A stretch of 64,000 bases of DNA from Sphaerolaimus hirsutus (Eukaryota; Nematoda; Chromadorea; Monhysterida; Sphaerolaimidae), in assembly GCA_964036195.1 (NCBI GenBank), contig OZ038459.1, forward strand, positions 6,941,206-7,005,205. The letters are read 5' to 3'. The notes beneath the pieces are model-generated. The model was not told the DNA's origin and searched no databases. It saw only the letters and a program-made list of their open reading frames with translations. Made by a program: the position numbers and the translations under genes. Of the stretch, positions 1 to 60,540 are shown one piece after another (position 1 is the stretch's first letter; every line of letters begins with the position of its first letter).

Positions 1-95
1 GCGCCATGGCGCTTTTCTGGACCTTAGCGCCAAGCGCCAAAGGCGCCAGGGGGCCATGGCGCCAAGCGCCAATGGCGCCAGCGCCAAAATGATAT
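1..95. repeat. GCGCC-type MITE fragment at window edge
   Basis: Tandem GGCGCCA and GCGCCATGGCGC palindromes typical of the family seen whole at 8254-8606. Confidence 0.5.
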
Positions 96-368
96 TGCCT
101 TTAATGATACAGGTGAGACAAAGTACTATTTTCTTGAGTTTCAATAACTTGTATTGCCTCCAAAAAGACAAAAATGGTCAAATAATGGAAATCAATACGT
201 TTTCTTGCTCAACACACAAGTGTAACTAAGACTGGTTCAAATAGATAGCAAATTGCCTCTCTGAAGTGGTAGAAGCTGAAAGATTGTTGCGGTTGGGGGT
301 TGCAGCGTTTCAATCTATCGGATATTTCAAGATTTAAAGTGCAAACTGTGGATAATAGCTAAATTACA

Positions 369-770
369 TACTGTATTTCCTCGAAATACCCCCCCCCCCC
401 TGGGGTGATTGTTTCAGAGTGAGAATTTTGAGGGGGGTTAAACGAGGGGGGTATTTCGAGGGGGGCTTATTATTTCGCCAGACATTTTTTGACATTCCAG
501 TACTAAATTGTCGTACGCAGACGTAGAAAAATACAACAATAACCGCTATATAAATTATAAGAGTCTATTGACTTATTTAAGTATGTAACACTGTTCTAAC
601 GTAACAATTCATTGTTTGAAACGTGTGTTTTGCATTGCGCGAATCACAAACTGAAGTTTTGTCATGTATGCTCTCTGTACACTCAATTTGGGGGGGGGGG
701 GTATTTCGAGGGGATGGGTAATTATTTCATAGTGTCCATTTTGAGGGGGGGATTTTGAGGAAATACAGTA
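369..770. repeat. Palindromic MITE of the CCGTATTTCC / poly-C family
   Basis: Inverted ends TACTGTATTTCCTCGAAAT and its complement, with poly-C and poly-G tracts inside. Confidence 0.7.
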
Positions 771-847
771 TCTGAGTAAAATATCTATGTAAAATAATTA
801 CATACATGGCCAAAAATTGCTGAAAATAGGCAATAAGGCACAAGAAC

Positions 848-1090
848 ACCGCGGCGCAACTATCATTCTCTGGCGCTTTTTTGGCGCTTTAAAAAATGGT
901 AGCGCCAAGCGCCAATGGCGCCACTGGAAAGTAGCGCCAAGCGCCAAAAGCGCCATGGCGCTTTTCGGAAACACGGCGCCAAGCGCCAATGGCGCCACAG
1001 CATTTTAGCGCCAAGCGCCAAAAGCGCCATGGCGCTTTTTGCTTTGGCGCTAGCGCCAGGCGCCAGCGCCATGGCGCTTTCACATCACTA
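848..1090. mobile_element. GCGCC-type MITE inserted in introner-like sequence
   Basis: The right end GCGCTTTCACATCACTA is clear; the left end is ill-defined. The interior is a series of GCGCCAAGCGCCAAAAGCGCCATGGCG palindromes, which create ORFs in both directions that are not genes. Confidence 0.6.
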
Positions 1091-1092
1091 CA

Positions 1093-1185
1093 CATGACAT
1101 TTTACAGCGTATTTTACATGACTTTTGACACTTTGCATGACATTTGACATTTTACAGGGTCGTTTACAGGGTCTGGTAGTGGCAC
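1093..1185 (-). mobile_element. Introner-like element, 5' part, in exon of the paralogue
   Basis: Starts GTGCCACTACCAGACCCTG on the sense strand directly after CCAG of the WSC exon. The rest is interrupted at 1090 by the end of a GCGCC-type MITE, so the far end is not identified. Confidence 0.65.
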
Positions 1186-1305: not shown

Positions 1306-2951
1306 CTGTATAAATAATAAATATGGATTTTAATGAGTCGTTTTCAAATATTTATGCAATTAATGCTATACCTAGGGCTCTCGTCTCGAAATTGACTTTT
1401 CAGGATCGGGATTGTTTTTTCAGATCGTAATTTTCAGGTCCAGTACCCGGAAGCCGTTGTTCAATACCGTGCGGCGTGAGCACATAGCAAGACGTTTTAT
1501 CGATTAGTTCAAATTCGTGACAATCTGTCAGTTCATCCCCCCTCATGGTGTTGGTTAGGCTGTCAATGTAAATATTTACATGTAAATGTATGTTTTATTA
1601 TGTGCTGAAAGCACCCCTGCCCGGGTCAAGCATTTTGCGCATGTAAACCCATCTCGCATGTAGACCCATTATAGACACATTGTAGCCGCAGGGTTAAACG
1701 AGGGGGGAGGGTGACCTTACCCCAAACCGCCCAGCAATCTATCTATCCCTGGGAGATTTTTTTTGTCAACTTTCCCCTGAACCCCCCCCCCACGAATTGC
1801 CTAGCTACCTAGCTTTCTGGAGCACTTTTGAGCAATTTTATACTACTTTACAACCAAAATGGCTAATTTTCAAATTCTTATAGATTTTCACATTCAAAAT
1901 CATTAAGACATGTGTTTTATTGCCTATTTTCTGCATGCCGAGTATCATTAAATGTGTTCCGGGTCAACATGCGGAATGGGTTTACATGCGGAATAGTGCA
2001 GTGCCTCCCTCCCGGGTCCCTGCCCTTCCTTCACTGCACATGGGTTGAATTTGAACCAATCGATACAACGTCATGCTACGTGCTCACGCCTAACGGTATT
2101 GAACAACAGCTACCGGGAATAGGATGTTTGGATCGGGATTCACATTTAGAATTTTCGGGGCTGGGACCGGAATTTTGTCCAAAAAGTTTGGGATTTGGGG
2201 TTTCTCCTGTCATAACCTTTCACAAAATGTCCAAATTAATGGAAAACCAATTTTTTGTTTAATATAAAGCTGCTTTAGAGCACAAATAAAACAATAACAG
2301 GTGTGTGTGTGTGTGTGTAGAACCACAGACACAAACGAATGCGTGCATCCCTGCACTTTTTTGATTTAACCGACCAATATTGTCCGTAAGCCTCATCCAC
2401 TTCCCACTACTGTCTTGATAAATGGAATTTTTTGTACACTGGAAATTATTCATTGCAGTTGACTCGCGCAATGGGGTGATTGAATCGTATTCCAGATCGT
2501 AGCAACCTGGGGGCAGTCCTGAGCCCTGTAAAGTGTAAAGTCGAGTAGTGTCGATTGTCATGCAAAATGTCAATCAAAACCGAAAAATATTTATATTTTA
2601 TTACTGAACTTTGCATCACAATTGACACATCACCTGACAATTGCGTGACAATTGACAAATTTCTATGATATTTGACACCGGACTTTACACTTTACAGGGC
2701 TTGTGAATGCCACCAGAAGTGTGCCAATTACCTGCGAATACAGAAATGTCGTTGTTGCAACATTTCTAATGGTATCTTAGTGTAAATAATTTAACCTCCC
2801 GCATACTCGCATCTGTCTCCAAGGAAAGTAAAATCTGACAATATATTTCTGCAATTACAGCCATCATAATAGTAGTCGTAGACAGTAGTATTATCATATA
2901 CGCGTTCCACACACGCTTCGGGGTGTCTCGAACATGACCGGGCTGTACATG
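1186..2951 (-). CDS. Second EGF-WSC block, start of a tandem channel-gene paralogue (partial)
   Basis: Four exons duplicate those at 16.8-18.0 kb: EGF at 2796-2951, an 18-nt micro-exon at 2714-2731, the WSC N-half at 2375-2506 and the WSC C-half at 1186-1305. Intron sequences are also alike, for example the AT-rich stretch near 2150-2290 against 17100-17250, so this is a segmental duplication and not domain convergence. Protein differences are modest (DLEYDSITPLREST against NQEYNSITPLRESI). The WSC introner-like element is shared by both copies, and its acceptor is intact here. A further element interrupts CGGPG at 1186 only in this copy. The block should continue left of the window; it could alternatively be a decayed duplicate of the same gene. 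Confidence 0.7.
2299..2319. repeat. GT microsatellite
   Basis: A run of GT dinucleotides, absent from the duplicated copy near 17.26 kb. Confidence 0.9.
2375..2506 (-). CDS. Paralogue exon: N-terminal half of WSC domain
   Basis: Acceptor GCCCCCAG from the introner-like element; encodes GCYDLEYDSITPL through GKWMRLTDNI. A frame stop just past the donor supports the chosen donor ATTG|gtcggt. Confidence 0.75.
2507..2713 (-). mobile_element. Introner-like element forming an intron inside the WSC domain (paralogue copy)
   Basis: On the sense (minus) strand it begins GTGGCATTCACAAGCCCTG and ends ...GGACTGCCCCCAG. Inner inverted repeats (CCCTGTAAAGTGTAAAG) border an AT-rich core. CWG sits at both borders (CTG and CAG). 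It splits a Gly codon, and the WSC domain is continuous when it is removed. Confidence 0.85.
2714..2731 (-). CDS. Paralogue micro-exon of 18 nt
   Basis: Encodes NWHTS plus one base of Gly. Donor TTCTG|GTGGCA is the element end; the acceptor is tgtattcgcag. Same size and phase as 17773-17790. Confidence 0.65.
2796..2951 (-). CDS. Paralogue exon: EGF-like domain
   Basis: Phase 1-1, 156 nt, acceptor attttgcag and donor GGAG|gttaaa. Contains CSRHPEACVER and DGCNCRN and ends RCEYAGG, colinear with the exon at 17855-18010. Confidence 0.75.
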
Positions 2952-5033: not shown

Positions 5034-8000
5034 CTGTAATTTTTACCTAAATTTAACTTAAATCTTAACATAAATCCTCTGGGGTATTATTTTTAGGATG
5101 GATTTAAATAATCCAAGCAGGGTTTTTTCGTTAAAGTTCTTAACCACATTTCTAAAAAATATTGTATAAAAAATGAACGATGTCATATTTATGGATGATA
5201 TCACCTGCAAAATCTGCTACCAAAACATACATGACACATGTATTTATGTGTTGACATAAACATAAAAATAAACGTTACAAAAACGTGTATTTAGTGCTGT
5301 CACAGTACATATTTCATACATTTTTTGCTTTAAGTGACAGTACAGTAGATTTTTTCATACCTTTTTCAAGTATTTATATATAATGGAAACACAGCACAAT
5401 AAATTGCTATACAAATAACTATGCTCCCCCAATGTGTTGAATGTTAAAGCTAGCTAAATGACATCAACAAATAACTTTTATAAATACGTAAATATATGAG
5501 TCAGTTCACGAGTCAATAGCCACTCCAGGAACAAAGCTTGGACACCGATAAAAAATTGAAAATTGCAAAAAATGGTCCTAAAGTACTCCACTGGGTCCAG
5601 TGAGTATTGAAATATGTGAAAAATTTTCATTCATATATTGAATATACTTGAAAGTTATTTCCAAAATTGCTCATTACTGACATTATTCACTGTTGGGCAC
5701 CTAACTATAAAGGTATAATGGCTATATTTTATGTCATTACGAAGCCGAGAATGTCCTCTATCAGAATCCACAAACTTTTTGGGGGGTTCCCCTCAAGTCA
5801 CTTATACCTAAGATAGCAAAACGTACTGGCAGAGTCTAGTCCACCCGATTGCATCGCGATTCATGCCTTAACCGTGGCTGGGGAAAGGTAGTAGACACAC
5901 TTAGTTGCAAAGCCAAGAATGTCCTCTATCAGAATCCACAAACTTTTTGGGGTGTTCCCCTCAAGTCACTTATACCTAAGATAGCAAAACGTGCTACACG
6001 CAGTTATCTGCAGCTAGGTTGCATTGTGATTGCGGCTAAACCAGGAAAAACTATTCGCTATGATTCATACCACGAGAAAGCTGAGATTGTGCTCTTTCAG
6101 AATCCACTGCCTCCCAGATGGTTCACTGTCATTTTTTTATACCTAAGAAATCAAAACGTGTAATTTTAGAGATTTGAGCTGATTGCGTCACAACTGAGGC
6201 TGCAACAGACGAGATGTAAAGCCTATATTTTATGTCATTGCGAGGCTGAGAATGTCCTCCTTCAGAATCCACAAACTTTTTGGTTTGTTCCCCTCAAGTC
6301 ACTTATACCTAAGATAGCAAAACATGCTACATGCAGTTATCTGCAGCAAGGTCGCATCATGACTGCAGCTAAACCAGGAAAAACTATTCGCTATGATTCA
6401 TACCACAAGTAAGCTGAGATTGTGCTCTTTCAGAATCCACTGCTCCCCAGAAGGTTCACCATCACGATTTTATACCTAAGAAATCAAAACATGTAATTTT
6501 GGAGATTTGAGCTCGGATAACAGTGTGCAGCACGTTTTGCTATCTTAGGTATAAGTGACTTGAGGGGAACCACCCAAAAAGTTTGTGGATTCTAATATAG
6601 AAAACATTCTCGGCTTCGCAATGACATAAAATATAGGCTTTACACCTCGTTGGTTGTGGCCTCAATCGTGACGCGATCAGCTCAAATCTCCAAAATTACA
6701 CGTTTTGATTTCTTAGGTATAAAATCATGATGGTGAACCTTCTGGGAGGCAGTGGATTTTGAAAGAGCACAACTTCAGCTTTCTTGTGGTATGACTCACA
6801 ACCAAATAGTTTTTCCTGGTTAAGCCGCGATCACAATGCAACCTCGCTGCAGATAACCACATGTAGCATGTTTTGCTATCTTAGGTATAAGTGACTTGAG
6901 GGGAACACCCCAAAAAGTTTGTGGATTCTGATAGAGGACATTCTTGGCTTCACAATGAACTGTGTCTACTACCTTTCCCCAGCCACGGTTAAGGCATGAA
7001 TCGCGATGCAATTGGGTGGACTTGACTCTGCCAGCACGTTTTGCTATCTTAGGTATAAGTGACTTGAGGGGAACCCCCCAAAAAGTTTGTGGATTCTGAT
7101 AGGACATTCTTGGCTTCGCAATGACATAAAATATAGGCTTAACACCTTGTTGGTGGCAACCTCAATCATGACGTGATCAGCTCAAATCTCCAAAATCAAA
7201 CATTTTGATTTCTTATGTATAAAATCGTGATGGTGAACCTTCTGGGAGGCAGTGGATTTTGAAAGAGCACAATCTCAGCTTTCTTGTGGTATGAATCATA
7301 GCAAATAGTTGTTCCTGGTTAAGCCGCGATCACGATGCAACCTCACTGCAGATAACTGCATGTAGCACACTTTGCTATCTTAGGTATAAGTGACTTGAGG
7401 GGAACCCCCCAAAAAATTTGTGGATTCTGATAGAGGACATTTTTTGCTTTGCAACGAAGTGTGTCTACCACCTTTCCCCAGCCATGGTTAAGGCATGAAT
7501 CGCAATGCAATCACCTCATGTCACTATTCCATGTGAAAAAGCTAGATTATGCTATATATAATAGTAAACAGAAAAATGAAATGTCATACTTTAAGCAATA
7601 CTTTAAGACAAGAATGTTTTTTGGGTCTGTCCAACTTTTGGCTACTGACTCGTGAACTGACACATAAAAGAATGTGACACTGTAAAATACCTCCAAGTTG
7701 TATGTGCCTGGGTAGAAATAATGCTGTACTTGATCTGCTCCATGAACACACTGGCTATAGATTCCACCCAATCGGGATGTTTCATACTGTAGAAATATTG
7801 AAATGGAGTGATAAACAACAAAAATACCTAAATGAGAATAGCCAGCAATTTTTGAGTGTATAGAATTTAGTGATGTACGTAAATAGATATTTAAGTGCCA
7901 TGTTGCTTTGGGACATAGAATCAACTGCCAAAGAAGGCATCAACATCTTTTTCACAGCAAACCACATCTGGTAACACCACGAGAAAGACAATTTCGATAA

Positions 8001-11000
8001 AATCCCAGGATCTTTTTTATCGTAACCACTCCTACAAGTCTACTGCTGTGTATGTGAAAGTCGAAAGGCGCCATAGCGTTTTTGCTATGGCACTGTGACC
8101 AGGCACTTTCACAGCACTAGCTCAGTGCATTTTGCTTTGGCACTCATGTCACTTTCACCACTTTGAAAGCTGGCCTAGTAATGCTAAGCATGTATTTCTG
8201 CAGTGAGTGAAAAAAATCAAGTTTGCTCAAAGTTATGATTTTTCATGATTACCTAGTGATGCAAAAAGCGCCAGAACTTTGGCGCCAAGCGCCAAAACGC
8301 CATGGCACTTTTCCGACCCCTAGCGCCAAGCGCCAATGTCGCCAGAGCAAAGTGGCGCCAAGCGCCAGAAGCGCCATGGCGCTTTTTGCTTTGGCGCTAG
8401 CACCAAGCGCCAGCGCCAAGCATTTTGTTCCTGGCGCCAGACAATAATAGCGCCAAGCGTCAAAAGCGCCATGGCGCTTTTCATGGGTATAGCGACAAGC
8501 GCCAATGGCGTCACAGCCAATCAGCGCCAAGCGCCAAAAGCGCCATGGCGCTTTTTGCTTTGGCACTAGCGCCAGGCGCCAGCGCCATGGCGCTTTTACA
8601 TCACTAGTCATGATTTTTTTTGTTGCTGCAAAATGATTGCTGCATTGCATTGAATATGTGTAACTGGCAAACTGGTTTAACAGTGGTTCTACAAAAATTA
8701 AAATGAGAAAAAAAGCATACAAATTTTAGTCCAATATTTGTCACTTCTCCAGTAGCTACAATGACATGCTGTGTATCGCTCAGCACTGTGTCATTCTGAT
8801 CATGGACAAAGACTTTTAAGCCAGACATGCTCTCCCAGGTGACATAACTTTCTGCAGGAATTTCCAAGGTGATTGTCAGGCCTGAGTGAGTATTTTTTAA
8901 ATGGAATGTTTCATCCAAGACTATCTACCAAAGACTTGGGTTTAAATGGGATCCTCATCCAGAGTCAATCAAATTGTTGGAATTTTCCAGTCCCAATCAC
9001 GATTCTGACTCGTCAAAATGTGACCAAAAGTTCCAATCGTGATCCCAATCAGTGACGAAAAATGTGGCGGTGACGCAGTGATTGTCACCGCCTGCTTTTT
9101 GGATGTCACCGCAAGAAAATGAAGTGTCATCGCGGTGACAATCACCGCCACATTTATTGAGGGGTGGTTCAGGGCATGATTTTTGGGCACATTCCATAAT
9201 TAGAATTCCGTGAATGAAATTAAAAGAATTCAAGCAAAAAGCGTGGTGCCAAATTAGCATTTGAAACGCATAAAAACATTCACGCTGCCGGCTGCTCTGC
9301 TCATTTGCACACAGCCATGTGAGAAAAAATTCAAATCGTTTTGGTGTAAATACACAAACGGTGAGCATTGCGAGCACTGTGCAAGCGTTTTCACATAGCT
9401 TTTGGTATTTCGTTTTTCACGTCCTTTAGGTCCTTTAGCCATGTATTTTTGAGAATGAGAATTTTCAGTGTGCAGGATTTTGTGACATCGGTCTTGTTAA
9501 AAGATCATGCTTGTTTTCTTTGATTTCTTTTTTCTACATAAAATAAGACAGTGACAAACAAGTACCTACACCATATTTAATTCACTAATTTTATTCACGA
9601 TAATTTTATATTATAGGTAACGATGGCAAACCCTCATGAAAAAAGTATTTAAATTTTTAAGTGTTTTTTCTTGAATTTCGAATTTTGTCGATAATTCGAG
9701 GTAATACAGTATTCATAATTCAGACTAAAAATTTGAAAATACAATAATTTGATGCGAAAATATTTGAAAAGTAATCAAAAAGATTCGAAAATTTGAAAAC
9801 TAATTTGTACTCCAGCTACATATAGACTAGTTTGTGTAGCTACACAACGTTTTTGTGTCCAAATATTTCCTGTTTGGACAACATTTATTACCTGTTTTGG
9901 GTACGAAAATGCCTACTGTTTACTACGATCCTTATGAAAATTTCTGATGACAAAAAAACAACCTCAAATAAACCCCCCTTGAATTAACCCTCCTCAAATT
10001 TTGCTCGCGAAATAATGAACCCTCTTGGGGGTATTTCGAGGTAATATGGTACATTTGAATGTTTTACAGCCTTTGGTACTGTTACCGTAGATCAATTTGC
10101 ACATTGAAGTTCTGCAGCTACAAAATAATCCATGCAAAATTGATGTTTTGAGTTGATTTTTTTACATTTATTCACATTTTTCACCAAAACTACCTAAAAA
10201 CAGAGTTGTTAAAAGTACTGAACTTTGTATTCTGTACTCTATGTATATATTCAGTACTCTATGTATGTATTCTGTACTCGAGTACTATATACTAGTGATG
10301 GAAAAGCGCCCCCCGCAATACGGTTCCCTTGATTAACCCCCTCAAAATTTACACCCTGAAGAAATAAACCCCCCCCCCCCCACCGCAATACGGTTCCCTT
10401 GATTAACCCCCTCAAAATTAACAATCTGAAAAAACAAAAACTATTTCTATTCTATTTGGGGCTATTTCAAGAAAACACGGTATACACCAAAAAATGTTGG
10501 TGTCACTGCCTCAAAAATGTCTGTCACTAACTGTCACCGCCAGAATTTTGGACCTTTTTTCGTCTATGATCCCAATAAGTGAAAAATGCAAAAAGCAGGG
10601 TCAATTCCTATAGCGATGGTAAATTGGGCAAAATATTGGGACATTCCACTCGCAATCCTGATCCATGTCCCACCGAACACTGTCCCGATCCCAATCCTTA
10701 CCATAACTTTCCAAAACACCGATTCCAATCCAATCATATAAATCCAACTCCATTTGAAACCTACCTCCATGCATGCCAATCCAGCGCACATCATGACGAG
10801 CAGTGGTGTTGGGATTAAATCGGACACAGTTTCCAAGAACTGCTTCGTGGTACAGCTCAGTGTCCCTGCGAGTGGGGGTAATCAGAACTTAAGCCATATG
10901 AACATTGGTGTTAACAATAACATTTTATTTGTTCTACACTATATAACACATTGTAGTGTAGATTCAACAGATTGAAATATGCCTGCATGTCGAATGAAAA

Positions 11001-14000
11001 TTAACAAAAATTAACAAAAATAAAGGGTATTTTAATAATTTTGAGCAGTGTTTATAGGCAAAAAGACTAAGATCTACATACTATCATCGGATTTTAGAAA
11101 TGCTATCCCTCAATTGTTGTGAATTGTGTTCAGCAATTGCTGGTATTTATTTGTACATCAGACACTAACAAGCAACTTGAATGACTTTGGTGCTACAGAT
11201 AATTAGCACCACTGTTGGTGATTTCAGTTTGTGGTAGTTTGTTATTTTGTCCTGTTTCCACGCACAGGGCAGTGCTGATTGTATAATTGAGGAGTCTACT
11301 TCTAAAAGTCGACAAGTCCGTCGACATGACAATTTTGCGTTAAGCCCGGAAACGTCATCTGGAACTACTCCCGCACATTTTTCATAATTTTCCATAACTT
11401 TTTTGACCTCACGTGCCCATATGGCATAGTGCCAAATTTGACATTTTTTGGGGAAAATGCAAAAAATTTGGGCAAGAAGTTGACAAGTCCACTTAGTTTT
11501 GGGCTAAAAGTCGACAAGTCCATCCTCCGCATCCTTTTTTGTGGGAAAAAAATAGCAAGAAATGTGATATGTCCGTCACGGACAGCTACTTCTAAAAGTC
11601 GACATAAAAGTCCATAAATTGCCCATAAGGGAGAATGATCCAGGCCAGGAACAAAAATGTTTGTTAGTGCAAGAAGTCGACAAGTCCATTTCCCTCCCCA
11701 AAACAGTTTTGCTCTGACCGAATGGAAATTTACGGACCTCCCATTTTTCACATAAAGGTTGAGATGAGAGCAGGGGCTGAAAGTTTGACACTTTACTGTC
11801 AACATATGGAACTTAATGGAAACATGAGAGAGCCAAATTGGACACGCACCACGGGCCTGGAATTGGATCGGAAACTTAAAATGCGATTTACTCAAAATCA
11901 CATTTTGTGGACTTGTCGACTTTTAGAAGTAGAGGCCTCAATTGTATTGTTATGTGTGTGTTAGTAAATTTGGCCATTAATTATTTATTATCATTTTTTT
12001 GAGATTTTTATATTTGCTGTTTGTTCAATTAAATATAATTGCACAGCCTGTGCTATAATATTGTGACTCCTTGTGAGCCTTCTTCAGGTCACTAGCCTTG
12101 TGTGATGTATTTGTAAAACACCAGTAACATGAATTCATTCAATTTTATAACTAGTGCAAAAAACATTGCAAACACACTCTTTTATGCACTTTTCTCCCTC
12201 ATAAAAGCATTTAACTCCACGTGGTCCATCACTGTATACCTGCCAGCCAGCATCTATCCTTTCCTCCCTTGTGAACTCCCCCATCACTTCATAGGACACT
12301 GCATCAGAAAATATCGCCATGTTTAAAGCCGAATTGCTGAAGTCCTCATCCTGCAATGTAAGTCAAGTGTGGATCAATTTCTGATATTCTGGCACCATGT
12401 CACTGATGCCATATAGGTCATTGAGGGTCATATGCACTGGGATTGGGATTTGGGAACCCCTTTTCTGCGGCACTTTGGGTGCCTGGCATCATTTTTTGAA
12501 TGGCACCTGGAAGGCAGTCCCAGACCCTGTCAAGTGTAAAGGAAAGTGTCAAATGTCATGTAAAATGTCAATCAGAACAAAAAATAACATTTTTTACTGA
12601 ATTTTGCAGTTACAGTTTACACTTTGTCATGACAGTTGACACTGCATGACAATTTACAGGGTCTGGGAATGGCACCTGGTGCCATTGGTGCTTGCTGCTT
12701 GACACGATCCTTCCAGATGCTTTCCCACAGTAGACTCAACCATTTGAAGGATCTAGGTACCTACCTATTTATAGCGTTGACTCCTCGAAGGATTCCTAAT
12801 TAGTCCAAATTTTCAGTTGCACATGAAAATTAGTTTTGCAGATTGTTTGGCACAACGGTAGAACTAGAAATTATGGAACTGCATAAAATTTGTAAACTCT
12901 TGCCAAAACCAATTCACATGGAACCGAAATACATGATAACAAATGGTATCAAACCGAATAATATGTCAACATGATTTTCAAGAAGTAGACAGAAGCGTAC
13001 TCACATTCATGTCAATTCCTAGTGCATCCAGTGCTGCTTCTATTGCAGGTGCTTCTTCTATGTCTAGAAATTAATGTGTGAATTGGTTATTTTTGACAAG
13101 AAAATCAAAACATTGTAAAACACTCTGGACTTCACATGAGCTGGATTGGTCCAATAAAATAAATTCTGTTCATTTATTTTTGATTGTATTGCGACAAATT
13201 GATGTATTTGTGTAAAAATTGTCTATTCATGATGGCAAAGAAAAATTCTAAAATTCGAAATTGTTTTCTTGCATTTTTTGCATTTTTATTTCACCATCAA
13301 GAAAAACAAACAAACATCGATTTTTTTAAGAAAACGTTTTCGATATTTTTCCAGTTATTTGGTTGAAAATACATGCATAATGCTGAAACTCCTATTGATA
13401 AGCATTAATTTCACAAGGATATAAATAGGTATTTTTAGCGGCAGCAAAAATGTGCATGTGTCTGTGGTAAGCTTTTTGTCAATATCGGTAGAATGACAAA
13501 ACTTTCGCCAGCCCATCACATGTGTAATTATCATAAAAGAGCGACGTGCCCAAGAGACAATCGATCCCGGTGAACTGTGCACTACAAATACACTTGTGGG
13601 TAAAATCAACGGGGTCTGCAATGCAAGTAGCATCCACATCGACTGAATTGCAAGGTTGTGAAATGCACGGATCATCTGAAAAATGATTGAACAGCAACAA
13701 TGTAATGCAAAAATAAGTGATGTGGAAAGCGCCAGGACTTTGGCGCCAAGCGCCAACGGCGTCACAGCAAGATAGCGTCAAGCGCCACGGTGCTTTTTGC
13801 TTTGGCGCTACCGCCAGACGCCAGCGCCATGGCGCTTTTACATCACTAGCAAAAATACCATGCAAAAACACAACCATTTTAATGAAACTTTTGCAAACTG
13901 ACCCCTGTCACAGTTGTGGCCAACGTAGCCATACGGGCAAATGCATTGCCATCCTGGGGGCATTCCCAGACCCTGTTAAAGACCCTGTAAAGTGTAAAAT

Positions 14001-17000
14001 ACCCTGTAAAGTGTCATGTGTCATGTAAAAGACCCTGTAATATGTCAAATGTCATGTAAACGACCATGTAAAGTGTCATGTGTATCCAAATATTATTTAA
14101 CCGTATCCAAATCTTATGTTTTTGTATCGAAATCGTATGTCAAAAAGTAAGATTTTGATACAAAATTGTAAGATTTGAAGACGATCAAATAAGATCTGAA
14201 CACATAAATATGATACTTTACAGGGTCTTTTACATGACACATGACATTTTACAGAGTCTTTTACATGACACATGACTTTTTACTGGGTTTTTTTCACTTT
14301 ACAGGGTCTTTTACAGGGTCTGGGAGTGAACCTGGAGGATTATCACTCAAATTTGGGTGGCTAGCTGAATTCAGCAAAACATCAACACATGTCGCGTCAT
14401 TTACACATTGATCATTAAACACACATTCGTCATACTCTGGTGTGGGGATATCAGAACTTTTGTACATTACAGTTTACAAATAATGGAAATAAAATGTAAA
14501 ATCACCTTCACAATTCACACCAATGTAAGGCGTTTCACAAACACACTCATATTGTATCTCAAAATTCTCACCTTCCCATTTATCAATGCAAAGACCACCA
14601 TTTTGGCATGGATATCCGTACTCACAATCTCTGTAATCTGTTCAGGGGTTTATCAGTAGTGGTTTAAAAGTGCATCAGTATGGCATGAGGTTCTCTTTCA
14701 AATAAAACTTTTGTTATCCCTGGACTTGGTACTTTTTAAGTATTTTCCGATGCATTCCTACATTGTGTACATGGGCAATTGGTATAATACCCCAATTTAA
14801 AATATCACTGATGTTTATAATACGAATGTTAAAATATGACCACACCCAACGTATCCCAGATTGAAAACTGGATCAACCCACTTTCGCATCGTGTACCATT
14901 ATAACCTGGGGGCAGTCCCAAGCCCTGTAAAGTGTAAAGTAAAGTGTCAAATGTAAAGTCAAATGCAAAGTAAAGTGTCAATCAAAACAAAAAAGAAAAG
15001 ATTTTATTACTGAACTTTGCATGACAATTGACAGTTTACTTTGCATTTGACTTTACATTTGACAGTTTACTTTGCATTTGACTTTACATTTGACACTTTA
15101 CTTTACACTTTACAGGGCTTGGGATTGCCACCAGTTTGACAAGTGCATTGAAACATGTTATACAAGGGTTCAGAGCAGGTTCCACCATGCAGACATGGAT
15201 CAGAAAGACATTCATCAATATCTGTGAGAAGTGATTGTATGAAGGTTAGGTAAATAATTTGGTGAAGAGTGCAAAGAGCAAAGCGGATAATTTATGTATG
15301 GCCCAGCCCAGATCTCAGGACAACACGGCTGTCTGCAATTTGTCATGTGACAACATTTCTATTTATAATAGGTTATTTTTCAAGGTTAAATACGTGTTCC
15401 TTCTAATTTTCACCAAATTGCCATGCTTAAGATAACATACAGTAGTAGAGATAGATAGCTGAAAGTCAACAAAAAGGAACTCAAACTAGTTATTATGGAG
15501 GTGAAAATCAATAAAAAGGTATGAAAATGAGTGATTTTGAGCAAACATTGTGGTATAACTTCTCAGAACCGATTGGGGGGGGGGTCAGGGGATAGTAGCC
15601 AAAAAATTTGCCTCCAGCATCCGGGATAGATAATAGCTGAACTGCCTCTCGGGGATAGATAGATAGCGGGATAGGTGCGGGGTTACTCCACACATTACCC
15701 CACATTGAAGACACCTGGTGCCAGTCCCAGACCCAGTAAAAGGACCCTGTAAAAGGGCCCTATAAGTGTAAAAGCCCCTGTAAAATATCATATGTCATGT
15801 AAAATACCCCGTAAAATGTCATGTGCCATGTAAAAGATCCTAAAAAATGTGACATGTCATGTAAAGGCCCTGTAAAGTGTCACATGACATGTAAAACACC
15901 CTGTAAATTATCATGTGTATCCAAATCTTGTTGTATCATATCCAAATCTTATATTTTTGTATCAAATTTTACTTTTGGACATAAGATTTGTGTCTGATGC
16001 AATAAGATTTGGATACACATGACACTTAAAAGGTTCTATTACATTACATTTGCCACTTAACAGGGTCTTTTATATAACATATGACATTTTACAGGGTCTT
16101 TTACATGACATGTGACATTTTACAGGGTCTTTTAGATGACATTTTACATGGTCCTTTATATGACATTTTACAGGGTCTGGGACTACCGCCTGGTATACAT
16201 GTTTAAAAAAAATGTAAATATTTTTCAACAACTGTGGTTTTTTGAATAGCAATCACGATGAAAGGATTACAAGCTTCAAGAACTTTTCTAGAAACTACCA
16301 CATTGGCTAACTTATGCATGACTGACGCGTGTCATCAGGATGAGCCATGCCAGTTGGACACTTGCATTGAAATTGATTAAACCAGTCAAAGCAGTGGCCA
16401 CCTGAGCTGGTACATGTCTCATTTGGACACTTGAGAATGGGATCTGCATGGGGAGTGGGAATTTTTAAGACATGAAAGTATTATTATAAGTTACCTATGT
16501 TAAAAAACTGAAAAGTGGTAGAAATTTAGTGGCATAGATTTTCTAGTGTGGCACTGGCAGCCAGTCCCACACCGTGTAAACGGTGAAGTAAAGTGTCAAA
16601 TGTCATGTAAAATGTCATTTTAAATGTAAAAGAATAACAATTTTTTACATTCTGCGTGACAATTAACAAATTTGTATAACATTTTACATGACATTTGACA
16701 GTTGGCATTACACTTTATACTTTACATGATGATCCAACGATGATGAAATCTTATGGGGGTGTAGCCAAAAATCAAAACAAATACGCACCATTTGCTGAGA
16801 ACGTTACCGCATAATAGTACCCTGGCCCCCCACATGTTATGTTTTCATTTCCGGCACATTCATATGTGCACATTGATAGATTGGATCCAGTGAGGATAGA
16901 TTTAGATGACACATAACCACACTTTGTTTCCTCATATGTAACTGTGTAAATATGAAAATGAGTCATTTTCAAGTATTTATGCAATGAATGCAGCTACACC

Positions 17001-18010
17001 TAGAGGGTTCAAATGTGATTGACTTTTCAGGATCGGGATTGTTTTTTCAGATCAGAATTTTCAGGATCAGTACCGGGATTATGTTCTCAGGATTGGGATT
17101 TAGATTTAGAATTTACAGGGGTTCGGATCGCGATTTTGACCAAAAGGTTGGGGATTTGGGGTTACTCTTAATGTTGCACAAAAAGTCAGAATTGATGAAA
17201 ACCCAATTTTTAGGTTTCATATAAAGTTGTTTTTAGACCACAAATAAAAGCGCTAGTTATTTAGTCTATAGAACCACCGAGACACGCGCAACCGACACGA
17301 AACAAATGTATGCATCCCCTGCACTTTTTTTGGATCAAACCGACCAATATTGTCGGTAAGCCTCATCCACTTGCCACTGCTATCTTGATAAATGGAATCT
17401 GTTGTACACTCGAAATTATTCATTCCAATCGACTCGCGCAATGGGGTGATCGAATTGTATTCCTGATTGTAACAACCAGGGGGCAGTCACAAACCCTGTA
17501 AAAGACCCTGTAAAGTGTAAGAGACACTGTAAAATGGCATGTGTCATGTAAACGACCCTGTAAAATGTCATGTCCCATGTAAAATACCCAGTTAAGACCC
17601 TGTAATCTAAGATTTGAATACAAACAGATAAGATTTGGATACGATACAATAAGGTTTACAGAGTCTTTTACTGAGATTAGACAGTTTACATGATATTCTA
17701 CATGACACATGACATTTTACACAGTCTTTTACACGTTACGACGGGGTCGTTTACAGGGTCTGGGACTGGCACCTGATGTGTACCATGCGCCTGCGAATAG
17801 AGAAATGTCGTTGTTGCAACATTTTTCAGTGTATTTGGATGTAAATAACCTAACCTCCTGCATACTCGCATCTGGGTCCAAGGAATGTAAAATCTGACAA
17901 AATATTTCTGCAATTACAGCCATCATAATAATAATCGTAGACAGTAGTATTATCAAAAACACGTTCCACACACGCTTCGGGGTGTCCCCAACATGACCGG
18001 TATGTGCATG
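4852..18010 (-). CDS. EGF/WSC-containing DEG/ENaC (EGAS-like) cation-channel subunit, 17 exons recognised, both ends incomplete
   Basis: Predicted plasma-membrane channel subunit of the degenerin/epithelial sodium channel family with a large modular ectodomain. I assembled 17 exons from splice sites, and the donor and acceptor phases agree at every junction. Domain order: EGF-like, WSC, five to six EGF domains, then the DEG/ENaC ectodomain. Family hallmarks seen are GNCVRFNP (family: GNCYTFN), GLTITLEI followed by GLKVFVHDQND and TNIGLKF, then YSQC, then GCYRACHQ with CGCVDPKYP. C. elegans EGAS proteins combine EGF and channel domains; a WSC domain is not something I know from that group. Not seen: the first membrane segment (expected above 18010) and the second (expected below 4852, where there is an assembly gap). 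Several introns hold mobile elements, and three junctions are introner-like insertions. One acceptor (exon 3, at 17477) lacks AG, so this copy may be splice-impaired. Confidence 0.8.
5725..7512. repeat. Large foldback element in channel-gene intron
   Basis: Two arms about 0.8 kb each, centred near 6530. Each arm holds repeated modules such as cacttatacctaagatagc and its complement. For example 5848-5910 pairs with 7450-7512. No coding capacity is credible. Confidence 0.75.
7691..7786 (-). CDS. Channel gene exon 16: R-L-P-x-PYG-x-C equivalent
   Basis: Phase 0-0, 96 nt, acceptor tctacag, donor GAG|gtattt. Encodes YETSRLGGIYSQC ... YFYPGTYNLE. In the family an RL-x-x-PYG-x-C motif and a Y-S/N-x-E strand sit here. 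Confidence 0.8.
8254..8606. mobile_element. GCGCC-type MITE in channel-gene intron
   Basis: Ends TAGTGATG and CATCACTA. The 8-bp TCATGATT occurs at both sides (8243-8250 and 8608-8615), suggesting a hAT-type duplication with slight end ambiguity. Confidence 0.75.
8721..8881 (-). CDS. Channel gene exon 15: GL-x-L-x-L / V-x-VHDQ block
   Basis: Phase 1-0, acceptor actcactcag, donor AAATTT|gtatgc. Encodes GLTITLEIPAESY, then GLKVFVHDQND and VTNIGLKF. These match the family pattern of a GL-x-L-x-L strand, a V-x-I/VHDQ strand and a T-x-IGL/I-K strand. Confidence 0.9.
10765..10865 (-). CDS. Channel gene exon 14: GNC-x-FN block of DEG/ENaC fold
   Basis: Phase 2-1, acceptor ccactcgcag, donor GGAG|gtaggt. 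Encodes DTELYHEAVLGNCVRFNP ... WIGMHG. GNCVRFNP matches the strongly conserved GNCYTFN element of DEG/ENaC ectodomains. Confidence 0.85.
11297..11931. mobile_element. MITE with TACTTCTAAAAGTCGAC ends
   Basis: 635 bp, inverted ends TACTTCTAAAAGTCGACAAG and its complement, with flanks gaggagtc and gaggcctc (six of eight alike). Internal repeats of GTCGACAAGTCC. The ORFs inside are its by-products. Confidence 0.75.
12178..12350 (-). CDS. Channel gene exon 13: DEG/ENaC ectodomain, first cysteine pair
   Basis: Phase 0-2, acceptor acattgcag, donor AAAGA|gtgtgt. Encodes DEDFSNSALNMAIFSDAVSY through GVKCFYEGEKCIKE. In the family a C-x-F/Y-x-G-x2-C motif precedes the GNCYTFN block, and that block follows in the next exon. 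Confidence 0.75.
12510..12675. mobile_element. Introner-family element within a channel-gene intron
   Basis: A 166-bp copy with arms GAAGGCAGTCCCAGACCCTG and its inverted counterpart, flanked by CTG on both sides, a perfect 3-bp duplication. On the minus strand it runs GTGCCATTCCC ... CTTCCAG. Confidence 0.75.
13005..13063 (-). CDS. Channel gene exon 12: linker into channel ectodomain
   Basis: A short exon of 59 nt, phase 1-0, acceptor atttctag and donor AAT|gtgagt. Encodes IEEAPAIEAALDALGIDMN. I recognise no motif; it is placed by splice sites and matching phases. Confidence 0.6.
13520..13675 (-). CDS. Channel gene exon 11: last EGF domain and linker
   Basis: Phase 1-1, acceptor catttttcag. 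Encodes DDPCISQPCNSVDVDATC ... HKCICSAQFTGIDC, then a linker SLFYDNYT. I chose the donor ACACAT|gtgatg because it alone gives the phase needed by the next exon. Confidence 0.7.
13715..13848. mobile_element. GCGCC-type MITE, short copy with perfect target duplication
   Basis: 134 bp between two GCAAAAAT copies (13707-13714 and 13849-13856), ends AAGTGATG and CATCACTA. Lies in the intron between channel exons 10 and 11. Confidence 0.85.
13903..13953 (-). CDS. Channel gene exon 10: end of the split EGF domain
   Basis: Encodes WQCICPYGYVGHNCDRG after the split Gly codon. The acceptor GCCCCCAG is made by the element end plus its CAG target copy. The joined EGF domain is perfect in phase and cysteine spacing. 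Confidence 0.85.
13954..14331 (-). mobile_element. Introner-like element forming an intron inside an EGF domain
   Basis: Begins GTTCACTCCCAGACCCTG and ends GGAATGCCCCCAG on the sense strand. The 3-base flank is CAG on both sides, a perfect target duplication. The interior carries short repeats related to GTAAAGTGTCATGT. The joined EGF domain reads NPPGWQCICPYGYVG in frame. Confidence 0.9.
14332..14436 (-). CDS. Channel gene exon 9: first part of an EGF domain, cut by an introner-like element
   Basis: Encodes EYDECVFNDQCVNDATCVD and a spacer ending NPP plus one base of a Gly codon. The donor CCAG|GTTCAC is the element end. The domain resumes in frame at 13953. Confidence 0.85.
14506..14637 (-). 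CDS. Channel gene exon 8: EGF domain
   Basis: A phase 1-1 exon of 132 nt encoding YRDCEYGYPCQNGGLC ... YECVCETPYIGVNCEG, a complete six-cysteine EGF domain. Acceptor ctgaacag, donor GAAG|gtgatt. Confidence 0.85.
14882..14905 (-). CDS. Channel gene exon 7: last eight codons of the split EGF domain
   Basis: Reads GYNGTRCE after joining across the element at 14906-15131, completing the EGF signature C-x-C-x2-GY-x-G-x2-C. Donor CGAAA|gtgggt, phase 1, which fits the next exon. Confidence 0.8.
14906..15131 (-). mobile_element. Introner-like element forming an intron inside a cbEGF domain
   Basis: Begins GTGGCAATCCCAAGCCCTG and ends CTTGGGACTGCCCCCAG on the sense strand. The arms are long near-perfect inverted repeats around a core with AAAGAAAAG. 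Flanks are CTG and CAG. Excision gives CQTGYNGTRC. Confidence 0.9.
15132..15221 (-). CDS. Channel gene exon 6: first two-thirds of a calcium-binding-type EGF domain
   Basis: Encodes IDECLSDPC, HGGTC and FQCTCQT plus one base of a Gly codon, then stops exactly at an introner-like element (donor ACTG|GTGGCA). The missing end of the domain is the 24-nt exon at 14882-14905. Confidence 0.85.
15718..16189. mobile_element. Introner-family element within a channel-gene intron, long copy
   Basis: A 472-bp copy with ends GTGCCAGTCCCAGACCC and GGTCTGGGACTACCGC, flanked by CTG on both sides. The interior is rich in GTAAAATGTCATGTG-like repeats and their complements. Confidence 0.75.
16312..16443 (-). 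CDS. Channel gene exon 5: EGF domain
   Basis: A phase 1-1 exon of 132 nt with acceptor ccatgcag and donor ATAA|gttagc. It has six cysteines (CPNETC, GGHC, FQCKCPTG, RQSC) in EGF order. Spliced to the next exon it gives NIDEC, the usual start of a calcium-binding EGF domain. Confidence 0.75.
   Translation of the reverse strand: MPFSSVQMRHVPAQVATALTGLINFNASVQLAWLILMTRVSHA
16550..16740. mobile_element. Degenerate introner-family copy
   Basis: The left side carries gcagccagtcccacacc and gtaaagtgtcaaatgtcatg, with complementary sequence to the right. The right terminus is eroded and no target duplication is visible. Confidence 0.45.
16789..16941 (-). CDS. Channel gene exon 4: C-terminal half of WSC domain
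   Basis: Acceptor atttacacag, donor AATG|gtgcgt, phase 1-1. It contains KCGYVSSKS, CTYECAGN and CGGPGYYYAV, which match the WSC pattern C-x3-C-x-GN...CGG-x-Y. The CGGPG stretch is uninterrupted here, whereas the paralogue at 1186-1305 carries an introner-like insertion at the same Gly codon. Confidence 0.8.
17345..17476 (-). CDS. Channel gene exon 3: N-terminal half of WSC domain
   Basis: Starts within a Gly codon directly after the introner-like element and encodes GCYNQEYNSITPLRES through GKWMRLTDNI (132 nt, phase 1-1). The expected acceptor reads CCCCCTG instead of CCCCCAG, so correct splicing is doubtful in this copy; the paralogous exon at 2375-2506 keeps CAG. Confidence 0.7.
17477..17772 (-). 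mobile_element. Introner-like element inside the WSC domain, acceptor mutated
   Basis: Orthologous in position to 2507-2713. It starts GTGCCAGTCCCAGACCCTG on the sense strand but ends GTGACTGCCCCCTG, lacking AG. Flanks are CAG and CTG, the reverse of the paralogue. Confidence 0.8.
17773..17790 (-). CDS. Channel gene micro-exon of 18 nt leading into the WSC domain
   Basis: Encodes AWYTS plus the first base of a Gly codon. It lies between a 64-bp intron (acceptor ctattcgcag) and the introner-like element at 17477-17772. Joining it to the next exon gives the WSC start TSGCYNQEY. The same micro-exon exists at 2714-2731. Confidence 0.65.
17855..18010 (-). CDS. Channel gene exon 1 seen: EGF-like domain
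   Basis: A phase 1-1 exon of 156 nt with acceptor tttttgcag and donor GAG|gttagg. It has six cysteines in EGF spacing, including CWGHPEACVER and DGCNCRN, ending RCEYAGG. It is nearly identical to the exon at 2796-2951. An upstream exon must exist because the first codon is split. Confidence 0.8.
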
Positions 18011-18526
18011 CTGCAAAAAGTGAAGCTAAAAATAATCAGATAACTGTCATTAAACACGTTTATGAACGTGACCTGACAAATGAGGTGCATTTTCAATGCT
18101 TTACTGTTACCGATAATAAATGTGAAATGGTGCACACAACAAAAAGATTTCACGCACCCGCTGACGCATTGAAGGCCAGTAAAAGTGGACAGATTATCAC
18201 CGCAAACACTAAAACGGGATAGTTTTTCATGATAAAAGATGTGAAAAATCCCTAAAATATTCTGCTTATTTTTTATCAAAGTTCCATTGCGGTTTCTAAG
18301 TAGTTTTCGACACGTTTTTGCAACGTGCATTCAATATGCTGAACTTTATGCTACCATATAACCAGTCGAATGCTGAAACTGGTGAATACTGGCATTGTCA
18401 ATGACATCTGGAAGAACAATAGCTTCGCTTGAATATTTTATTGTTATTAGTGATATAATGGTGCCATTTGAGGCCGCCATAGGGCGGCATTCCATCTTTC
18501 ATGACGCCATTGGCGCTTGGTGATTT

Positions 18527-34193: not shown

Positions 34194-37100
34194 GTGGGGC
34201 TTAACTGAATTTTTTTCGTTTGAGTGAGGTTTGAGTGATGGTTTCTTTGGCTTGTGACAATTTGAATTGACAATTATCAATATGAAACATGCTGTGGAAA
34301 CAAGCGAGGAGGTGTGAAATTAAATAAACATTGTGTGTTTGTGGGTGATTTTCTGGTACCATTTCATTTCTAGCAGTGCGAGCGCTGATTTTGCGGTTCA
34401 TTTTGTTGCTTGACAGTTTCAAATAGAATTTGTCACATCGCTTGAGTTCACGAGGAGTGAAAAAATAGAAAATGCGGTGAAAAAGATATGCATCCTATAA
34501 TCAAATGCCTCCGCCTATTCTGCCAGCCTCAAATTACAAATGGTAAGTGTCAAGTCGAGGCTCGAGGGACATCTCCTGGTGCCAGTCCCGCACCCTGTAA
34601 AGTGTCAAATGTCATTTAAAATGTCAAACAAACTTGTCAACTGTCATACAGGTCATTAAGTATCAGGTAAAGTGTCAAGTGTCATGCAAAGTTCAGTAAT
34701 GAAATCTTCTCTTTCTTATTGGCATTTTATTTTACATTTTACACTTGACTTTACACTTTACGATGCTTGAGACTGCTTTCAGTGTGCAAAAATTATTATC
34801 ATAATTGGGTAATAATCCAAGCCCGCCCCCTCCCCCAACAAAGGCAACAGCGATTACTGGCGCCACAAGACTCAAACAGGGTAGCCAGCGGCGCCGCTTT
34901 TGCCGGCCAGAAAACAAATGCTGCATTCGACGCGGCGGCAGAACTTCGCGACGCGCTGCACATGACTGTGGAGGACGCCACGGTGAGTGGGGATGACGGA
35001 TTGAATTTGAACTTAGCCCCACCTTTTTCGGGCTGGGGTCAATTCGGCAAGTGGTTAGGTGAGACACCATTTTAGAAGTGGGATTTAAGGTGATAAGTGA
35101 AAAGAGAAGTTGAAAGTTTATTTGGTTATCAGTTTGACATATATATTTACAATTTTATCACCCTACTTGCGGATTCAGCCAAAATTTGCAAAATTCGAAA
35201 AATATTTCCGGAAAAAAATCGAAATTTGGAATTCATGGTAGAGAAAAAAACAATTTAAAAGTTAAACACCTTTTTCCAGGGGGATTATCATCGTTAAGAG
35301 CCACGTCGCAATTTGAAGCTATGACGGTGAACTCAAGTCATCATGGTTCCAGTCATCACCAATTTATCAACAGTCATCACCAATTTATTCATTTTCAGCG
35401 GTACCTGTCCGTGTATGGCTACCTGCCCCCGGTGAAGTCGGATTCGATCAGCGACGAAATGCTCAGACGCAGTGTGCGCCTATTTCAGCAGTTCAACAGA
35501 CTGCCCGATACTGGTGGGAAACTTTTTGTGGCGATTTTTCTTTATTCTTTAAAGAACCTTCTTTATAGAACAAACAGTAAAATGTTTTCTCATCACATTT
35601 ATCACATTGCTGATACATCTAAACCCATCACACATCAATGTGGGGTTTAGATGTGTGATGGGCTTAGATGTGTAATGGGTAGAATTAGATGTGTGATGGT
35701 TTAGATGTGTAATGGGTAGAATTAGATGTGTGGTGGGCTCAGATGTGGGCTGGCACAGGATCCTAAACAACACCCCCCTCCACAGGCTCCTTAGACCTTC
35801 CCACACTGGTCACAATGAAGCAGCCGCGCTGCGGCATGCGCGACATCGAATCGGCCAGACAATTGCGCAAATTATTGTCGCTCTCCGATCGGAGAACGTG
35901 GAGACGCAGACGGAGACGGAGGAGGAGAAAGCGCAGCGGCTGGGATCAGGATTTGAACGAGTTCGACAGGCCGAGAGGTGGGCGGGGCTTGAGTTGGTAC
36001 AGTCATAGACACTGTGATATGTCCCGTAAAATGTCAAATGTCATGCAAAGTGTCAAAGTTGTGTAACATTATCGTAAAATGTAAAAAACGTATAATATTT
36101 AAGTTGACTTTCTTATGTTCTCTTTTATATTCAATTAATTCAACTTATCATGACTTCGTTCATATTTACATTCTAATTTTAACATCTTCACATTCGCCAT
36201 TTAATATCTCAAGCGATGTTGTTTACAACGTGCGCTTCACATCGCTCACATATTTAGATCTTAGTCATAGCTCACATTCCGCCACATTTCCTTGACAAGC
36301 AGCACGCAAATACGCCGTCATGTTTATGTTAAGCGGCGGGCCCGCCCCGAGTGGGGGGCCGGGCCCGCGCGCCATTTCAAATGCTGTCTGGCTTGTCTCA
36401 CATTTTCACTATCTTGCCAGTTTAGCTCGCTTTTCATCGGAGAAGCGAGCGGGCAAGGATTGAACTTTCACAATTGGAAATGTTGGGTAAAAATCGGAGA
36501 TTAGAGCCGACCAATTGGCGCCAAACCAATCGCCATCGGTCTGGCCCTTAAAAGCCGATTTCACAGCTAGAATCGGCAGTGTTTGCAACCTCGTCAACTT
36601 CACAAGAATCTCTTCCTAGGATCTAAATAAGCGCCGTTTGTCACTTTATTAAGTTGCTTGTTTTTGGTGCTAAGTTTACCGCTTGGTGCTTTAAGTCACC
36701 TCAGTGCTTTATTTCACACCTGCGCTGTTTGAGGTGCTTTATTCACAACCGCGCCACTTAATTGTCGCCTTTTGTCGTAATTAAGTGCCTTCTTTAAATT
36801 GCCTTATTTTTCCGGTACTTAGAGCTTCTTTTACGTTTTATTTAAGTAATTAATTTAGTTGTAAATTAATTCCTTTGTTTACGTATATTTTTATATACAT
36901 TTTATTTACATTTATTTCTTTGTATTTAATTGTCTAAATAAAAACGTTCGTCAAAACTTTTGGTAAACAATCTGAATTTGCTTCACACTAACTCACGTCA
37001 ATTCACTTCAACTCAACTAATCACATTTGATAAAATAACGGAACGTCAACTAGAGACGACGCTTCACGTCAACTTACATACGTTCACATTTGTCCTCTTC

Positions 37101-54058: not shown

Positions 54059-54360
54059 TGTTGTAAAGTGCCTCTTGCACTTTATTAGTTTTTTGATAGA
54101 TGAAATGTCAAAACCCTTTGACAAATAATTTATTAGGTGAATAGAGCACAGCAGGTAGTTAAGACATTTGACTCAGCACATAAATAGATGTGAGTGATAG
54201 AACAGAACAAAAGGCCTACTTAAATAACCCTGTGTTAAGTGAGGTTGCACTGGTGAGACGCAGTCAACCAGTTCATGCAAAACGGTGCCAAAATTCAAAT
54301 GGGGCAAGTGCCCCCACATTGTGAAATCACACGGAAATGTACTGCGGTACACCCGCAACA
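54059..54360 (-). repeat. 3' LTR of the compact element
   Basis: 302-bp direct repeat of 57878-58179. The gag-protease frame runs about 34 bases into it. The preceding purine tract is at 54361-54370. Confidence 0.9.
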
Positions 54361-57659: not shown

Positions 57660-57857
57660 ACGCTAACGGCCACCTGGCAATCACTGCCAGCCCAGTCGTT
57701 CAAGACACAGGCGGATGGCCCGATGCCGCCGCCGCAAAACGTCGCCACCGGCCGTCTAGACGCCAAGCCGCTCGCACGTGTTGTCGCGGCCGGCTGCGGT
57801 GCCGGTTGGGTGCTGCAGGGCTGGAGTCAGGCGCCTGACTTTGTCCAGAAGTCAGGT

Positions 57858-59929: not shown

Positions 59930-59932
59930 CTG

Positions 59933-60125
59933 GGGGCAGTCCCAAGCCCTGTAAAGTGTAAAGTAAAGTGTCAAATGTAAAGTCAAATGCAAAGTAAAGT
60001 GTCAATCAAAACAAAAAAAGAAAATATTTTATTACTGAACTTTGCATGACAATTGACACTTTACTTTGCATTTGACTTTACATTTGACACTTTACTTTAC
60101 ACTTTACAGGGCTTGGGATTGCCAC
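59933..60125. mobile_element. Introner-family element outside recognised genes
   Basis: A 193-bp copy almost identical in its arms to 14906-15131 (GGGGCAGTCCCAAGCCCTG at the left, GGGCTTGGGATTGCCAC at the right), with flanks CTG and CAG. No flanking exon could be supported. Confidence 0.75.
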
Positions 60126-60280: not shown

Positions 60281-60540
60281 GCAACTAAAAGGCGCCAAGA
60301 CTCCAGCGCCAAATGCCAAACTCGGCAGGACGCTTTTTGCTGTGGCGCTAGCGCCAGTCGTTTGGTGCCTGGCTCCATGTAAAAAGAGCGCCGCGCGCAA
60401 AAAGCGCCAGGGTGCTTTTGAAAGGGCTTGGCGCCATGCGCCAATCGCGCCACAGCAAATTATCGCCAAGCACAAAAAGCGCTTTTAGTTGAGCGCTAAT
60501 GCCAAGCCAGGGCCAGGCGCCAGAGCTTTCACATCACTGG
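60281..60540. mobile_element. GCGCC-type MITE
   Basis: aaaaggcgccaagactccagcgcc at the left and gcgccagagctttcacatcactgg at the right. Confidence 0.55.

Follow-up and report, generated by a model that had tools for sequence, protein, structure and literature searches.

A family of inverted-repeat transposable elements has inserted into the coding exons of two tandem paralogous genes of the nematode Sphaerolaimus hirsutus, and introns have probably been produced there by transposition of a nonautonomous element of the NuwaI type, as far as the sequences allow us to judge. The locus lies in a stretch of 64,000 nt, hereafter the window (GenBank assembly GCA_964036195.1, contig OZ038459.1, positions 6,941,206 to 7,005,205; G000:C15:6941206-7005205 in the genome that we searched, which comprises 348 Mb in 762 contigs). 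Positions are those of the window, and a slash within a sequence marks the border between exon and element.

Gene B occupies positions 18011 to 13557 of the minus strand and contains a cysteine-rich exon, a GCY exon, a WSC-like exon, and four EGF exons, which probably belong to one gene, given their shared strand and order. Its tandem paralogue, gene A, starts inside the window (2952 to 1186) and extends leftward past the window into the adjoining loci L043 and L044. When the first three exons were used as a genome query, six matches were obtained, all within gene copies A and B. The exon pieces that flank the elements are 90 to 94% identical between A and B, stretches with ordinary introns are only 77 to 85% alike, and the paralogous exons are constrained, with ratios of nonsynonymous to synonymous substitution rates (dN/dS) of about 0.25 and 0.21, the latter for the cysteine-rich exon (17853 to 18011, minus strand; 2794 to 2952 in the paralogue).

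The family occupies nine places in the window (E1 to E6 and E8 to E10), and there is one degenerate end near position 16555. Two copies cut EGF exons of gene B on the minus strand. E4, which with one copy of its target site duplication (TSD) spans 13954 to 14331, has the borders CCAG/GTTCACTCCC...TGCCCCCAG/GATGG and arms of 125 nt paired at 87%. E5, which spans 14906 to 15131 with its right-hand TSD copy, has the borders ACTG/GTGGCAATCCC...TGCCCCCAG/GTTAT and arms of 79 nt paired at 95%; it folds into one hairpin of −121.6 kcal/mol with both ends adjacent. Both are predicted phase-1 GT-AG introns, E4 in EGF module 3 and E5 in EGF module 1. The first-pass annotation had described them as related inverted-repeat elements with exactly these coordinates and ends, and had proposed that their removal makes the EGF domains continuous (NPPG/WQC and CQTG/YNG); both descriptions hold. 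When the four EGF exons are connected across E4, E5, and three predicted ordinary introns, the resulting protein matches Pfam EGF at 1.7e-15 in three stretches.

Comparison of the paralogues reveals four exonic sites. At site 1 (S/GCY), gene A carries E2 (2507 to 2713, minus strand; 207 nt, GT-AG), with an 18-nt exon piece remaining upstream, and gene B carries E8 (17477 to 17772, minus strand; 296 nt), whose left border reads CAG/GT and whose right triplet is CTG, so that its borders are GT-TG. At site 2 (CGGP/GYYY), gene A carries E1, with the same CAG/GT and CTG borders and again GT-TG, and gene B is empty: its WSC-like exon (16789 to 16941, minus strand) reads uninterrupted CGGPGYYY at 16821 to 16824, and its 153 nt equal the exon of A from which E1 has been removed, the two being colinear. 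At site 3 (CQTG/YNG), E5 (GT-AG) separates the 5′ half of the EGF1 exon of B (15132 to 15221) from the 3′ half (14882 to 14905, exon end predicted), and gene A is empty, with EGF1 in one block and AAGCGG where B has AACTGG. At site 4 (NPPG/WQC), the EGF3 exon of B is divided by E4 (378 nt, GT-AG) into pieces at 14332 to 14436 and 13903 to 13953 (exon end predicted), and gene A carries another element, E4′ (194 nt, GT-AG). The EGF2 exon of B (14506 to 14637, minus strand, borders predicted) is uninterrupted. Removal of an element with one TSD copy restores the frame and the residues exactly.

That E5 and E1 each have an empty counterpart in the other paralogue shows that transposons inserted into coding exons, and at these two sites the exon was continuous before the insertion. 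That the elements instead entered pre-existing introns and then filled them is very improbable. E2 and E8 lie near an ordinary acceptor and some copies sit within introns beside exons, as this explanation would have it, but the lack of any intron in the paralogue at E5 and E1 contradicts it there, and at the exonic places supported by homology the element begins exactly at the exon triplet.

The first-pass annotation had also placed the family at 2507-2713, 17477-17772, and 1186. The places are correct, whereas the WSC label that it gave to the exons stays below the Pfam cut-off for the uninterrupted E1-type exon (E=0.013); the protein built for the E2 exons, the first residues of which were wrong in the query, had no Pfam match. 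The right end of the copy at 17477-17772 reads TG instead of AG, and the copy at 1186 is no stub: positions 1 to 1185 (minus strand) are the right part of a 4.8-kb element that continues leftward beyond the window, into L043. E1 is 4803 nt long including one TSD copy, its arms of 96 bp are 91% alike, and it contains other repeats but no open frame of more than 133 codons.

Genome searches with E5, E4, and E2 gave 1051, 2908, and 1663 first-look candidates, sets that may share members and should not be read as copy numbers, and 40 candidates were scored for each query. All 40 scored E5-like copies (E5 itself included) are 98 to 100% identical to E5, and the family is thus no chance resemblance; the best match outside itself, full or partial, is 87% for E4 and 81% for E2. 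E5 therefore stems from a very recent burst; E4 and E2 go back to older bursts.

In 27 of 38 distinct E5-like copies, the same triplet stands on both sides (CAG in 18, CTG in 5, CAT in 3, ATG in 1). Scored against the motif CWG, 23 of the 38 have matched CAG or CTG, 8 have CAG opposite CTG, and 7 have other triplets or mismatches. The CAG/CTG swap occurs between the TSD copies of L009, L012, L025, L027, L030, L034, L039, and E5, all 98 to 100% identical. A reading of the CCWGG-like flanks as a 5-bp TSD, or as belonging to the inverted repeat, was considered and rejected: the 38 copies give 3 bp, and the CAT and ATG pairs are clean. Point mutation as the sole cause of the W mismatches was likewise rejected, as mismatches occur in copies at least 98% identical (the 8 swaps among 38). 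Most E5-like and E4-like copies have a fixed polarity, with GTGGCA or GTGCCA at one end and a run of C (CCCC) before the right triplet at the other; read on the opposite strand, this second end begins GGGGCA or GGGGGCA in most copies.

The elements are hairpin DNA transposons resembling miniature inverted-repeat transposable elements (MITEs), with long inverted repeats and a 3-bp TSD that is mostly CWG. Their sequence signature fits that of NuwaI, a group within the PIF/Harbinger (PHIS) superfamily, and a Harbinger transposase would presumably mobilize them. The Harbinger-type domain DDE_Tnp_4 gave 163 matches in the genome, from 150 scored of 306 candidates. More than 100 of these have nearly equal scores (e.g., G000:C15:6824882-6825514), and most contain four internal TGA codons; the match exceeds the length that the model requires by about 190 nt, for which an intron inside the domain would be a guess. 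A search for the element in the collection viral_contigs gave two chance matches in phages (L001 and L002), and one in genome_contigs gave none.

These features suggest a simple route to an intron. An element related to PIF/Harbinger would insert at an exonic CWG, giving the order exon, CWG, element, CWG, exon. The GTGGCA or GTGCCA end of the element would supply the donor at the left junction (CWG/GT), and the AG of the duplicated target triplet would supply the acceptor at the right junction (CCCCCAG) when W is A. Removal of the element with one triplet would then restore the exon exactly in any phase, and pairing of the arms would bring both splice sites together in the RNA, so that the hairpin may help splicing. 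Exact splicing at the outer borders is inferred because frame and residues are restored, because GT-AG borders four of the six copies that lie in exons of A and B, and because retention produces stops: all 11 exonic elements with a resolved frame (10 in GT orientation and L050) would bring an in-frame stop into the message, the frames of L048 and L097 being unresolved. Insertions in phases 0, 1, and 2 are all present, and the predicted introns E2, E4, E4′, E5, L048, L052, and L100 have GT directly at the exon triplet and AG at the end.

Several of these copies lie in other genes. Outside the window, 88 copies had locatable ends (37 E5-like, 35 E4-like, and 16 E2-like). Eight whose ends were not located were left out (L056, L072, L073, L078, L089, L091, L096, and L101); L049, L058, L065, and L070, being second-strand or repeat matches of listed copies, were not relisted; and L092 to L094, which have one common flank, were all three counted. 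Four of the 88 are exonic by homology (L048, L052, L097, and L100), and five more are placed in exons by an open frame or a very weak match (L046, L054, L069, L079, and L106).

In L048, a Kunitz domain is restored over the junction (PF00014, 4.2e-18); against the PDB, the best whole-sequence match is to a three-domain chain (2.5e-32), and the best single stretch scores 1.7e-10. L100 interrupts HHAT, 57 of the 58 residues given aligning ungapped over the restored junction (3e-14). L097 lies in a ligand-gated channel exon, which scores 54.9 bits with the upstream piece and 51.4 bits without it; the match (1.1e-14) includes 8 residues upstream of the junction. For L052, the Pfam M1 peptidase match covers the upstream side only and stops 8 residues before the junction; we take the downstream side to resemble M1 enzymes as well, and a search of the L052 protein against the PDB set gave no M1 peptidase, only the lectin BP39L through weak repeated stretches. 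Among the copies placed by open frames, L069 presumably resembles a HECT-type ligase (the PDB search gave no match), and L106 has a Pfam match to LRR_4 alone, at 0.047. Pfam returned nothing for L046, L047, L050 (GT direction), L054, L055, L068, L069, and two L053 frames, and nothing meaningful for L079. The first-pass annotation had proposed to search the genome for elements lying exactly between coding halves. L048 and L100, in which the Kunitz domain and HHAT are restored across the junction, are such cases, and other copies probably are too. In L028 and L042, the left triplet is the CAG of an apparently ordinary acceptor, and the insertion may have displaced or duplicated the 3′ splice site.

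A number of observations weigh against the formation of introns by these insertions. Few of the copies examined were recognized as exonic; among the 38 distinct young E5-like copies, E5 is the only one, a count made from open frames and by eye, with no Pfam search on the others. E1 and E8, two of the five exonic copies in the window, would require a TG acceptor, as would L069, which is known by an open frame only. L050 splits a lectin-like exon (Lectin_C at 0.006, below cut-off) in the orientation that lacks GT, and the fact that all nine exonic copies above are in GT orientation is a biased count, GT frames having been screened harder. The right-hand AG is found in 10 of 13 exonic copies and 14 of 23 E4-like copies compared, a difference that is not significant (Fisher P=0.27), although AG had been expected to be enriched in exonic copies; the two sets were entered by hand, the background includes L046 and L054, which may be exonic, and L050, and eight copies with clipped or odd ends were left out of it (L062, L067, L080, L082, L083, L085, L086, and L088). 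At site 1, 18 nt separate E2 and E8 from an ordinary acceptor, and the element there may merely lengthen a prior intron. At site 3, gene A has GCG where B has CTG, i.e., no CWG; paralogue A either lost the CWG or never had one. The TSD copies are unmatched in 11 of the 38 E5-like copies, 8 being CAG/CTG. Last, no autonomous partner was seen at the one DDE_Tnp_4 domain that was read: the 1.5-kb stretch there (L109, mostly one side of the domain) had no terminal inverted repeat (TIR) of the family.

The elements themselves also contain rival splice sites, namely GTAAA 17 to 18 nt inside the 5′ arm and TTTACAG 18 to 31 nt before the end. GTAAA is present in 13 of 13 exonic copies (offset 18 except in E4, where it is 17) and TTTACAG in 12 of 13, and these motifs are genuine competitors of the outer sites. 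Use of the inner donor with the outer acceptor would add six in-frame codons wherever the offset is 18 nt; it would work in either orientation and would account for L050. Splicing at inner sites is nevertheless unlikely: the inner donor does not rescue E1, E8, and L069, which lack the outer AG; most inner acceptors would leave 19 nt in the message, which breaks the frame (31 nt in E4, and none was found in L106); and HHAT and the Kunitz domain align without gaps to relatives only when the outer sites are used, though small insertions might be tolerated.

A shade less likely still is that these are ordinary MITE insertions that disrupt genes, the carriers being pseudogenes or disrupted alleles in which no splicing takes place. 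The TG ends of E1 and E8, which put one copy without AG into each paralogue, and the exonic copy L050 in the wrong direction speak for this. On the other hand, the insertions strike several exons in several genes, with the frame open on both sides, the paralogous exons are constrained, and the older copies E2, E4, L048, and L100 (78 to 85% identical to relatives) still have GT and AG precisely at their borders. The formation of introns by transposition is the reading that we prefer, with a restriction: the elements are not all exact introns, because E1 and E8 lack a border AG, L050 is inverted, and few of the copies examined were recognized as exonic. The introner reading of the first-pass annotation is supported in part: insertion (the empty E5 and E1 sites), a young family, and recurrence in other genes are shown, and exact splicing is a prediction that would not hold for every copy.

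Where both paralogues are occupied, the occupants differ. E2 matches E5 over its full length at 72% and shares only short stretches with E8, the best match of which is E4 (75 to 83%). E4′ is 90% identical to an E1 arm over 84 nt and 74 to 77% identical to E4; since the ordinary-intron stretches of A and B are themselves so diverged, the E4/E4′ difference does not settle the matter, and site 4, considered by itself, may yet represent a single old insertion that has changed greatly. Tentatively, and with a likelihood that we place somewhat short of even, the S/GCY and NPPG/WQC introns are not single inherited insertions: the same triplet may have been hit twice in parallel, or the resident element may have been swapped for another through the shared arms, and GT-TG would perhaps be tolerated where the hairpin presents the borders. 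If this is true, a shared intron position would be no proof of shared descent.

Introners are transposable elements that generate introns (Gozashti et al. 2022, PMC9860276). According to that paper, similar elements reach from one splice site to the other at many positions, families with TIRs and TSDs occur, and mRNA length is unchanged in most families, all of which resembles the present case as predicted. There, and by prediction here, the element supplies one splice site and the target duplication the other; both ways of dividing the splice sites are described, and an element-borne donor with a co-opted acceptor is one of the described routes (PMC9860276). The family differs in its 3-bp CWG TSD and in the small share of examined copies that are exonic; the word Harbinger does not occur in the main text of PMC9860276. 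The NuwaI group of PHIS (PIF/Harbinger, ISL2EU, and Spy) is known from animals, with a 5′-CWG-3′ TSD and a TIR usually starting with GGG (PMC4482050). The 3-bp 5′-CWG-3′ TSD, the animal host, and the long TIR are shared with this group. One end here begins in most copies with GGGGCA or GGGGGCA, whereas the other begins with GTG, and the elements showed no transposase; the available part of PMC4482050 makes no mention of intron formation.

The introner elements of Amoebophrya share with the present family hairpin-forming inverted repeats, direct repeats of 3 to 5 nt at the exon borders, and noncanonical borders (PMC7789003). They differ in belonging to a dinoflagellate parasite, in being introns backed by RNA-seq, and in having highly variable borders, and family-specific inverted repeats were not detected in them (PMC7789003). 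Fritillaria borealis is, like the present host, a marine animal with noncanonical introns, mostly with AG-A(N) borders (PMC7789003), in contrast to the predicted GT-AG and minority GT-TG borders here. No title or abstract on NuwaI or Harbinger MITE introns in an animal was found in a literature search beyond whose reach lay most subscription papers, including a 2025 PNAS paper on introners. The noncanonical introns of F. borealis are reportedly of transposon origin.

The remaining copies in the window are E3 (12508 to 12675, minus strand), a family copy with CAG on both sides; E6 (15714 to 16190, minus strand), between the EGF1 and WSC-like exons of gene B and presumably intronic; E9, a diverged copy at about 34577 to 34783 (plus strand, borders approximate); and E10 (59931 to 60125, minus strand), 96% identical to E5 over 178 nt and in no recognized gene. 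A repeat family with a GCGCCA motif occurs at 1-1090, 8282-8619, 13717-13861, and 60345-60482 and also within E1, and dense direct and inverted repeats, with arms of up to 412 nt at 89%, fill 5687-7518. A Pao-type retroelement lies at 38129-44242 (plus strand) and continues to about 47789, with DUF1759 and Peptidase_A17 in two scanned pieces and more long open frames downstream. The minus strand at 54330-57662 has an open frame of 1111 codons with no Pfam match up to E=0.01. At 35138-35647 (plus strand) there is a PG_binding_1 match (7.6e-9), which we take to be possibly a matrix metalloproteinase prodomain.

The origin of new introns is a long-standing question, and a 2022 survey found animals and land plants to be a strikingly poor source of introners (PMC9860276). 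The family described here, in which the sequence-level features tested were found, would be an animal addition to the introner class. Because it combines high copy number and 98 to 100% identity with empty and occupied paralogous sites, it would make the birth of introns directly testable in an animal, including which W allows splicing, whether selection acts on polarity, and whether a different element can refill a given site.

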